NCBI GenBank assembly: GCA_032164295.1 | Contig: JAJHTX010000008.1 | Coordinates: forward strand, 1,674,001-1,738,000 | Direction of reading: 5' to 3' | DNA from: Inonotus obliquus | Lineage: Eukaryota; Basidiomycota; Agaricomycetes; Hymenochaetales; Hymenochaetaceae | Length of the DNA: 64,000 nt | Part shown: one piece after another, positions 58,063-59,481 of the stretch | Position numbering within the stretch: position 1 is the stretch's first letter | Layout of the letters: each line of letters opens with the position of its first letter | The notes under the pieces: model-generated | Told to the model about the DNA's origin: nothing | Seen by the model: the letters and a program-made list of their open reading frames with translations, nothing else | Databases searched by the model: none | Made by a program: the position numbers and the translations under genes

Positions 58063-58070
58063 TTCATGGC
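58063..58070 (+). repeat. Target-site duplication, left copy (TTCATGGC)
   Basis: Eight bases identical to 59474-59481, immediately outside the inverted ends of the element. Eight bases is the length made by hAT transposases. Confidence 0.9.
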
Positions 58071-59473
58071 TAGGGTTGCCGAAGTCCGGTCCTTGTCCGG
58101 TCCAGTCACTTTTGCCTGGACCTCGAACCGGACCGGTTCACTTTCCAGCTCTTTGTATGGACCAGGACTGGACGGCTGGCGGACCACACTTGGACTGGAC
58201 ATTTGGTTCGGTCCAGGTCCGACCCTGGTCCGGACCTGGACCAGATGTATTATTGTTAATTCCAATATTCTGTGAATATCTGGTTTACCATGCACACTGT
58301 CGAAGTTTTAGCAACCTCACTAACCAAGTGCGTTCGATTTCGTGAGTCACAAAGGCTGTCGCGCACGGAACTTATCCAAGGTTGTCGACGTAGATGTGCA
58401 GGGTGAAATGTTAGGAAACCGTGAACAGCATGGTTGCCCAACTATCGTCACTTGCAAACAAAGTTATCTGGGTGTCGATCGAAGTCGTTATTGCAGGTAG
58501 ACTCGGTGGACAAGCATTTGTTCCTGACGTGAAAGGGGTGTGGAAGGTTAGTTATAGGTCCGACTGTAACAATGAGTTCATGTAACATGTCGCACCCTGA
58601 TTCTTTAAGCCAACATATCCCGTCTCCTTTTTTGAGTCATAGCTACACAAAGGCATCAGAACCGTGCAAAGCTACAATGCATGGAAAACGAACTTTGCAA
58701 AGTTGTGCCATAACACTTCCGTTGGGTCCTCGAGGACACGCATGAAAACGCTAACATCTACCGTCTCATCTTCGATCGTGGGATGGCTGTAACCCTATTG
58801 AATGATAAACAGCTTCCTCAACTCGCTGAAACGTGTAAAACCCCAATCGCACTCATCAACAATGAAACGATGGTGCGCATCTAGGGATAATTCTGATATT
58901 GGTCGTGCCCCAACATGCGAAAAGCTATAACTATTCGGATGAGGGGAAGTGCAAGACGTACGAGAAACGGTGTAGATGGTGGGATTCGAGATGACAAGAG
59001 CGAGTTGAGCGTATGCATGCCATCCCTCTGGTGCTCTCTTTAGATCGGCAAAGTACAGATACACGGATACGGTATCGTTCGGTGGCGCGTTTGAATTACC
59101 GAAGGGATATAAAAGTGTTTGCCTAGTAAGACGTCCAAAGATGAATGGTGAATCGTTAACACGGTGAAAGGTAAGGACGTACCAACGATGTCCCCCACCT
59201 CAAACTCCGGACTGATAATCTTCTTCTTTAATTTCCTCCGATTTGCCAGCCTCCAATGGTAAACAGTGAACGACCTTATTGCGTACCTGCCAAACCGGTC
59301 CAGTCCAGGTCCGGACTGGTCCACCCCGGTCCGGAAAAACAGAAGGGAGCCGGACCAAGGACCGAACCAACCTGGACCTCAGCTGAACCGGACCTGAACT
59401 GGACTGGACTGTTGGTTCGGTCCGTGTCCGGACTGCGGTCCACACGGTCCAGGACCGGACTTCGGCAACCCTA
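58071..59473. mobile_element. Non-autonomous hAT-like transposon (1403 bp) carrying a captured host gene piece
   Basis: The left end TAGGGTTGCCGAAGTCCGGT and the reverse complement of the right end match perfectly over 22 bases, and TTCATGGC is duplicated on each side. TIRs beginning YAGGG with an 8-bp duplication are the hAT signature. About 170 bases inside each end are packed with GGTCC/CCGGACC motifs (58080-58240 and 59287-59460), typical of hAT subterminal transposase-binding repeats. No transposase is encoded, so it must move with help from an autonomous relative. The middle contains a MATH-USP gene fragment on the minus strand. Perfect ends and an intact duplication suggest recent insertion. 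Confidence 0.92.
58563..59270 (-). pseudogene. Captured fragment of a USP7/Ubp15-type deubiquitinase gene (MATH domain to catalytic Cys box)
   Basis: The minus strand reads as a MATH domain, FTVYHWRLANRRKLKKKI and SPEFEVG; after an intron-like gap HFYIPFGNSN, PPNDTVSVYLYFADLKRAPE, GWHAYAQLALVISNPTIYTV; after a second intron-like gap DAHHRFIVDECDWGFTRFSE. It continues past a stop (TAG) with HPTIEDETVDVSVFMRVLED and, further on, [20 protein letters not shown], the Cys box that opens the USP catalytic domain. The order and wording fit USP7/Ubp15 proteins. Genomic introns are retained, so capture happened at DNA level. The fragment stops right after SLLQS; the rest of the protease is missing. No parent gene lies in this window. 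Confidence 0.88.
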
Positions 59474-59481
59474 TTCATGGC
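59474..59481 (+). repeat. Target-site duplication, right copy (TTCATGGC)
   Basis: Identical to 58063-58070; borders the right inverted end of the hAT-like element. Confidence 0.9.

Follow-up and report, generated by a model that had tools for sequence, protein, structure and literature searches.

A candidate Pack-hAT family in Inonotus obliquus: intron-containing pieces of two host genes, with empty, filled and trimmed elements in one genome

Introduction

Arguments about how DNA transposons acquire host genes usually start from the end products. Fragments of several genes can be present in a Pack-MULE; hAT elements have short terminal inverted repeats (TIRs) beginning YARNG, and Helitrons have neither TIRs nor target site duplications (TSDs). 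In fungi, hAT transduplication of histone H3 has been described in Pyrenophora tritici-repentis (PMC3538342), and hAT-borne histone H3 has been reported in Pseudocercospora fijiensis and its relatives, with an 8-bp TSD in P. fijiensis (PMC6710886). These H3-carrying elements measure about 2.3-9.5 kb and are tied to hAT transposase domains (PMC3538342, PMC6710886). The captured H3 of P. fijiensis is intron-less and RIP-mutated, and an mRNA retrocopy was proposed as its origin (PMC6710886). In animals, Pack-TIRs such as Pack-hAT-N8_XT are non-autonomous hATs with host fragments, for which gap filling or template switching was proposed and short microhomology was reported at the breakpoints. The multicopy Pack-hAT of the frog has three distinct TSDs, the multicopy cases number 4 (1.4%), and an orthologous TIR element was found for none of them (PMC8277862). 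The Pack-TYPE elements of plants, including Pack-hATs, are likewise non-autonomous TIR elements with host gene fragments, and the words "fungi" and "fungal" do not occur in the main text of the paper that describes them (PMC8903248).

Gene capture by fungal hATs is therefore already published, and Pack-hATs are known in plants and animals. A previous reading of the DNA studied here, made from its letters alone (the sequence-only reading), had called such capture little described for fungal hAT elements, which is only partly right in view of the histone H3 capture published for Dothideomycetes (PMC3538342, PMC6710886). Among the matches listed from the open-licence literature, we found no hAT or Pack-type gene capture in a basidiomycete, no intron-containing cargo from two genes in a fungus and no chimera shared by several element families.

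Here, we examine an element of about 1.4 kb located at 58071-59473 (plus strand) of a 64,000-nucleotide stretch of the Inonotus obliquus genome (the window, G000:C8:1674001-1738000; 36.07 Mb in 30 contigs). We propose that it is very probably a non-autonomous Pack-hAT with a history of capture, trimming and spread and with a neutral cargo that makes no protein. Positions are those of the window unless stated otherwise; element position n corresponds to window position 58070+n.

Results

Structure of the window element

The element lies between two identical 8-bp TSDs (TTCATGGC, 58063-58070 and 59474-59481), as the sequence-only reading had it, and is bounded by perfect TIRs whose length is 23 identical bases (58071-58093 and 59451-59473) rather than the 22 given there. 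The left hAT/MITE end (58071-58309, plus strand) shares 91-94% identity, and the right one (59270-59473, plus strand, containing the right TIR) 90-93% identity, with three empty elements of the same family (L079-L081, see below); TAGGGTTGCCGAAGTCCGGTCC is the terminal sequence of the family's ends. Both ends are indeed rich in GGTCC subterminal repeats: the left 239 bp contain 11 and the right 204 bp contain 12 GGTCC/GGACC motifs, where base shuffling gives means of 0.5 and 0.7 and no more than 4 for either end in 1000 shuffles, and the two captured pieces contain 0 and 1. The observed/expected CpG ratio is 0.97 in this copy and 1.02 in the whole window.

Between the ends, a fragment of a multi-HAMP histidine kinase (HK) gene with a broken frame (58310-58556, plus strand) and a genomic fragment of a USP7/Ubp15 deubiquitinase gene (58561-59264, minus strand) are joined through a 4-nt GGTC filler (58557-58560). 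The filler creates the hAT subterminal motif GGTCC, which may be due to chance. The element thus holds host fragments between its TIRs, with parents on contigs C2 (USP7) and C8 (HK), and has no transposase of its own, as the sequence-only reading had also stated: six-frame reading of the element gave no long open frame, and none of the 30 genome matches to the hAT domain PF05699 falls on it. A Helitron reading was ruled out, as both TIR and TSD are present. Elsewhere in the window, 29076-31352 holds a large WD40-repeat open frame, the relatives of which (best 120 of 7883, many of them unnamed) include Agaricomycete WD40 proteins and also bear bacterial names. Together with the introns of the host genes and the dispersed repeats, these relatives point to a basidiomycete.

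A dispersed family that moved after capture

The 22-base end, with up to two mismatches allowed, occurs 76 times in the genome, versus 0 times for a reversed control pattern, and a DNA search with the element returned at least 54 matching pieces. Since 40 of the 123 candidates were scored in this first search, the family numbers are lower bounds. When facing ends within 12 kb were paired, 34 pairs were obtained and 8 single ends remained; four of the pairs exceed 3.5 kb and could join the ends of different or nested elements. Checked against the DNA-search matches, 31 of the 34 pairs contain captured host DNA and three are empty, MITE-like elements of 674-685 bp (C2:265059-265732, C10:1686047-1686720 and C8:347359-348043). 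A fourth empty element, at C13:382985-401679, seems to be interrupted by about 18 kb of inserted DNA.

In the orientation read, the left-hand end begins with TAGGG in all 26 two-ended copies (23 filled, 3 empty), and 2 of the 76 ends begin otherwise (AGGGG and TGAGG). The 8-bp TSD typical of hATs is exact in 20 of these 26 copies, has 1-2 mismatches in three (L013, L079 and L081) and 4-5 mismatches in three others (L023, L024 and L084). In 19 of the 23 filled copies the TSD is exact and all 19 TSDs are distinct, which indicates that the element transposed after the capture. Movement also looks recent, since two copies (L004 and L005) are identical over the region compared in the tree described below. 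Moreover, L019 and L020 carry the same poly-T-edged insertion of about 697 bp (99.6% identical) within different TSDs, which indicates that the element moved again after receiving this insertion.

Comparison with empty sites, proposed together with the initial reading, succeeded for one copy and not for the window copy itself, whose flanks are unique sequence in the joined-flank search. The flanks of L010, joined without the element, matched at least 40 rows, with 40 of the 65 candidates being scored. Two of these rows are the locus itself and 38, a lower bound, cross the joint as paralogous empty sites, 10 of them at 91-96% identity over nearly the full query length. At 49220-49365, the window also contains a divergent (78%) member of the dispersed repeat that received the L010 insertion; a base-by-base look at this copy alone found it uninterrupted at the L010 joint.

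Search for a transposase source

The nearest hAT domain is a truncated relic of the PF05699 dimerisation domain at C5:332603-332737 (region to 332915); a related end, TATAGTTGCCGCGGTCCGGTCC, which differs at 4 of 22 bases, lies some 0.2 kb away. The presence of this hAT C-terminal domain beside related ends agrees with the hAT-like label that the element had received from its sequence. No transposase frame was seen upstream of the relic, which has one other relative among the matches listed (C12:85069). Searching the genome with the ends had been suggested as a way to find both family members and an autonomous hAT; it delivered the 34-pair family, but no intact autonomous partner was found among 20 of the 30 PF05699 loci, the TIR variants and the relatives of the C5 hAT tail. 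TIR variants are also present at C3:3732, C3:1027443 and C6:302091. At C8:233-237 kb, a single hAT that would carry the chimera as well as a transposase was considered and rejected, as a separate 1.88-kb hAT adjoins a chimera copy there. This neighbor (L051/L070, G000:C8:234722-236600) has ends TAGGGTTCCGCAG, TSD TTCAAAAG and a hAT dimerisation domain.

Captured pieces and their parent genes

The USP7 piece (element 491-1194) is 88.8% identical over 733 columns to a host gene located at G000:C2:1761600-1764400 (L067), the donor that the proposed alignment to the full gene was meant to reveal. The three genome matches to PF12436 (USP7_ICP0_bdg) fall on a single locus on C2, and the host exons as defined here read through MATH plus the Cys box. 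The piece contains part of exon 1, introns 1-3 and exons 2-4 as far as the Cys box. Pfam was queried with a typed, exon-joined reading of the element, with X at doubtful places: MATH_2 matched above its cut-off of 32 (33.7 bits, E=5.1e-8), and UCH matched over 18 residues at 21.2 bits (E=2.4e-4), below its cut-off of 23.9. The minus-strand MATH domain and Cys box announced earlier were thereby recovered, and the intron-like gaps between them correspond to three introns on the minus strand (intron 1, 59123-59182; intron 2, 58881-58961; intron 3, 58643-58693), each bounded by GT..AG and aligned to its host counterpart. Because the three introns are retained, the source was genomic DNA and not mRNA, and a retrocopy was ruled out.

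The HK piece (element 240-486) shares 89.5% DNA identity with a host gene at about 273.8-277.0 kb of G000:C8 (L068). This gene has five neighboring HAMP-repeat matches and Pfam HAMP and HisKA domains, and we take it to be Nik1/Os-1-like. Pfam gave no match on the element's HK piece, which is identified by its DNA identity to the host gene. Deriving the whole core from USP7 was rejected, as 58310-58556 matches the HK gene. The previous description, a hAT-like element of Pack type that carries part of a USP7/Ubp15 gene, thus holds with respect to the parent, the copies and their distinct TSDs, and had missed the HK fragment. None of the three outcomes named beforehand as contradicting it was observed, the empty-site comparison bearing on L010, as the flanks of the window copy are unique.

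The two parents are unlinked, and their pieces sit in opposite orientation within the element. A transcript reading through both pieces would therefore carry the sense strand of one parent and the antisense strand of the other. This layout, the 31 filled pairs and the exact matches between element and parents (63, 52, 49, 35 and 31 nt to the USP7 gene, introns included; 31, 25 and 25 nt to the HK gene) would suit an element that acts on its parents via RNA, its dispersed copies possibly feeding small RNAs against HK and USP7. From the sequences, we consider such a role unlikely: variation among the copies looks neutral (see below), with no sign of selection for matching, and the trimmed form lacks an upstream part of USP7 that is still present in the copy L024.

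One joint in several repeat families

The GGTC filler occupies the same HK|USP7 boundary in all 11 sequences lined up, which include hAT copies, the locus L030, a C8 copy and members of two further families, B and C. In coordinates of the host stretches in sense (nik for HK and par for USP7, the reverse complements of L068 and L067, respectively), the longest chimera, L030, spans nik 867-1753 and par 2227-1013. Family B, with ends CATCACGAAAA, carries nik 863-1753 and par 2227-1895, its two boundaries being defined from two copies (L073 and L075); family C, whose ends are CATGGTGGGCAAAATA and whose left end reads CATGGCAGGCAAAATA, carries nik 1387-1753 and par 2227-1332, with both boundaries defined from one copy (L061, with L078). 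The divergent USP7 matches L061-L063 were rejected as functional paralogues: their frames are broken, and they belong to other repeats that also contain the chimera. A stretch of about 290 bp beside HK, common to L030 (reverse-complemented, 610-899) and L072-L075, may be a third gene fragment; its reading from family B gave no Pfam match.

In a tree of 32 rows (31 repeat rows plus the host, drawn midpoint-rooted, with 11 further rows omitted as too short), all 23 rows borne by the hAT group together (100/97). L030 neighbors this group at 82/79, under the starred level; a second group (98/93) unites families B and C with the C8 copy. The single joint and these groups indicate that the chimera was made once, and it probably entered the hAT once. 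The same junction in two repeat families with different ends indicates that the chimera is not confined to the hAT. We lean towards the view that one fused two-gene fragment is the shared cargo, at differing lengths, of at least three unrelated repeat or transposon families (hAT, B and C), and that transposons take over gene pieces from other transposons as well as from the genes themselves.

Empty, filled and trimmed forms

The empty elements L079-L081 match element positions 1-239 and about 1200-1403 and have an interior of their own of about 230 bp. L024 (C10:1580575-1583141) is the only copy that retains the remainder of this MITE, its insert being flanked by MITE sequence left and right, and it has no clean TSD. 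Compared with L081, it consists of MITE positions 1-239 (79%), a 1,325-bp chimera that extends into the USP7 5' region, and MITE position 253 onward (79%; 92% for the last 103 bp). The MITE bases missing from L024 are 240-252 relative to L081 and 241-249 relative to L079 (9-13 bp). Its right junction is unbroken in 1 of 26 search matches, namely, L024 itself, the two halves being separate in other repeats, and shows an overlap of 0-2 nt. Nested in the hAT end (L024:3345-3964) is an insertion of 620 bp that has inverted ends (AGGACCCCCGTTAATA...) and an apparent 8-bp duplication and perhaps represents a second MITE family.

The occurrence of the same chimera in two other repeat families could mean that another transposon bearing the gene pieces inserted into the MITE, the hAT having captured nothing itself. 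This is very unlikely, as the L024 insert starts inside HK and stops in the USP7 5' region, without B or C ends, and the MITE bases at the site were lost, not duplicated. Internal deletion is common in the hAT family, and the empty MITE might then be a later deletion product of the filled element. We find this highly improbable: the MITE interior is uninterrupted in L079-L081 and split around the insert in L024, and a deletion would have had to restore the missing bases and rejoin the interior cleanly in all three MITEs. Capture by an empty MITE remains our preferred reading, with trimming as the following event. L082-L084 are intermediate in the amount of USP7 that they retain (to par 1143-1151), and in the window form USP7 extends down to par 1496; these graded lengths indicate that internal deletions came after the capture.

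Coding capacity of the cargo

Neutrality was assessed on 29 copies with a near-full USP7 piece, 4 of 33 being omitted as too short. A TAG replaces one host Glu codon in all 29, three of which also have an adjacent 1-bp deletion, and exon 1 is 1 bp shorter than that of the host, causing a frameshift, in all 24 copies readable there (29 tried). Among the 29 copies, 41, 34 and 41 of 174 sites are variable at codon positions 1, 2 and 3, respectively, and 51 of 210 are variable in introns; fixed differences to the host number 7, 10 and 12 at the three codon positions and 11 in introns. Judging from these sequences, the captured pieces look like non-coding, neutrally evolving passengers. This apparent neutrality disfavors the decoy protein put forward in the sequence-only reading. 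MATH and Cys-box residues are still recognizable and GT..AG is kept at the introns, but that a truncated MATH/Cys-box protein is made and works as a USP7 substrate decoy is scarcely credible in view of the exon 1 frameshift, the stop common to all 29 copies and the even spread of substitutions over codon positions.

Discussion

The Pack-hAT reading of 58071-59473 can be laid out as four steps, taken from the sequences themselves. The HK and USP7 pieces would first have been fused in opposite orientation, with the GGTC filler between them. An empty hAT MITE of about 680 bp would then have lost about 9-13 bp from its middle and gained some 1.3 kb of chimera, introns included. We infer double-strand break repair with template switching as the route, on the basis of the lost MITE bases, the 0-2 nt overlap and the absence of a duplication. 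Internal deletions would subsequently have trimmed the filled form to about 1.4 kb, and this trimmed form, with its ends intact, would have reached many sites and produced distinct 8-bp duplications there. For this last step, the intact ends and the TSDs lead us to propose cut-and-paste movement by a hAT transposase acting in trans.

The capture history of the window hAT family is unusually complete. The empty element, a filled form with both junctions, trimmed derivatives and both parents are found together in one genome, so that gap filling, trimming and amplification can be ordered. The family also provides a fungal case of genomic, intron-containing capture from two genes, and speaks for the transfer of a captured chimera from one element family to another.

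Like the fungal hATs carrying histone H3, this family is a TIR-bearing hAT that carries and amplifies a host-derived gene sequence in a fungus; it differs in being a MITE with intron-containing pieces of two genes (PMC3538342, PMC6710886). The H3 of P. fijiensis is RIP-mutated (PMC6710886); the CpG ratio of the window copy (0.97) is close to that of the window (1.02). With the plant Pack-TYPE elements and Pack-MULEs it shares the nature of a non-autonomous TIR element with host gene fragments, whereas those elements belong to plants and to other families (PMC8903248). The animal Pack-TIRs are likewise non-autonomous hATs with captured host fragments, and the capture route suggested by L024 resembles the gap-filling model proposed for them (PMC8277862). 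Short microhomology at breakpoints and distinct TSDs among copies are further points of agreement. In contrast to the animal cases, the I. obliquus family comprises 31 filled pairs together with empty and filled intermediates, all within one genome.
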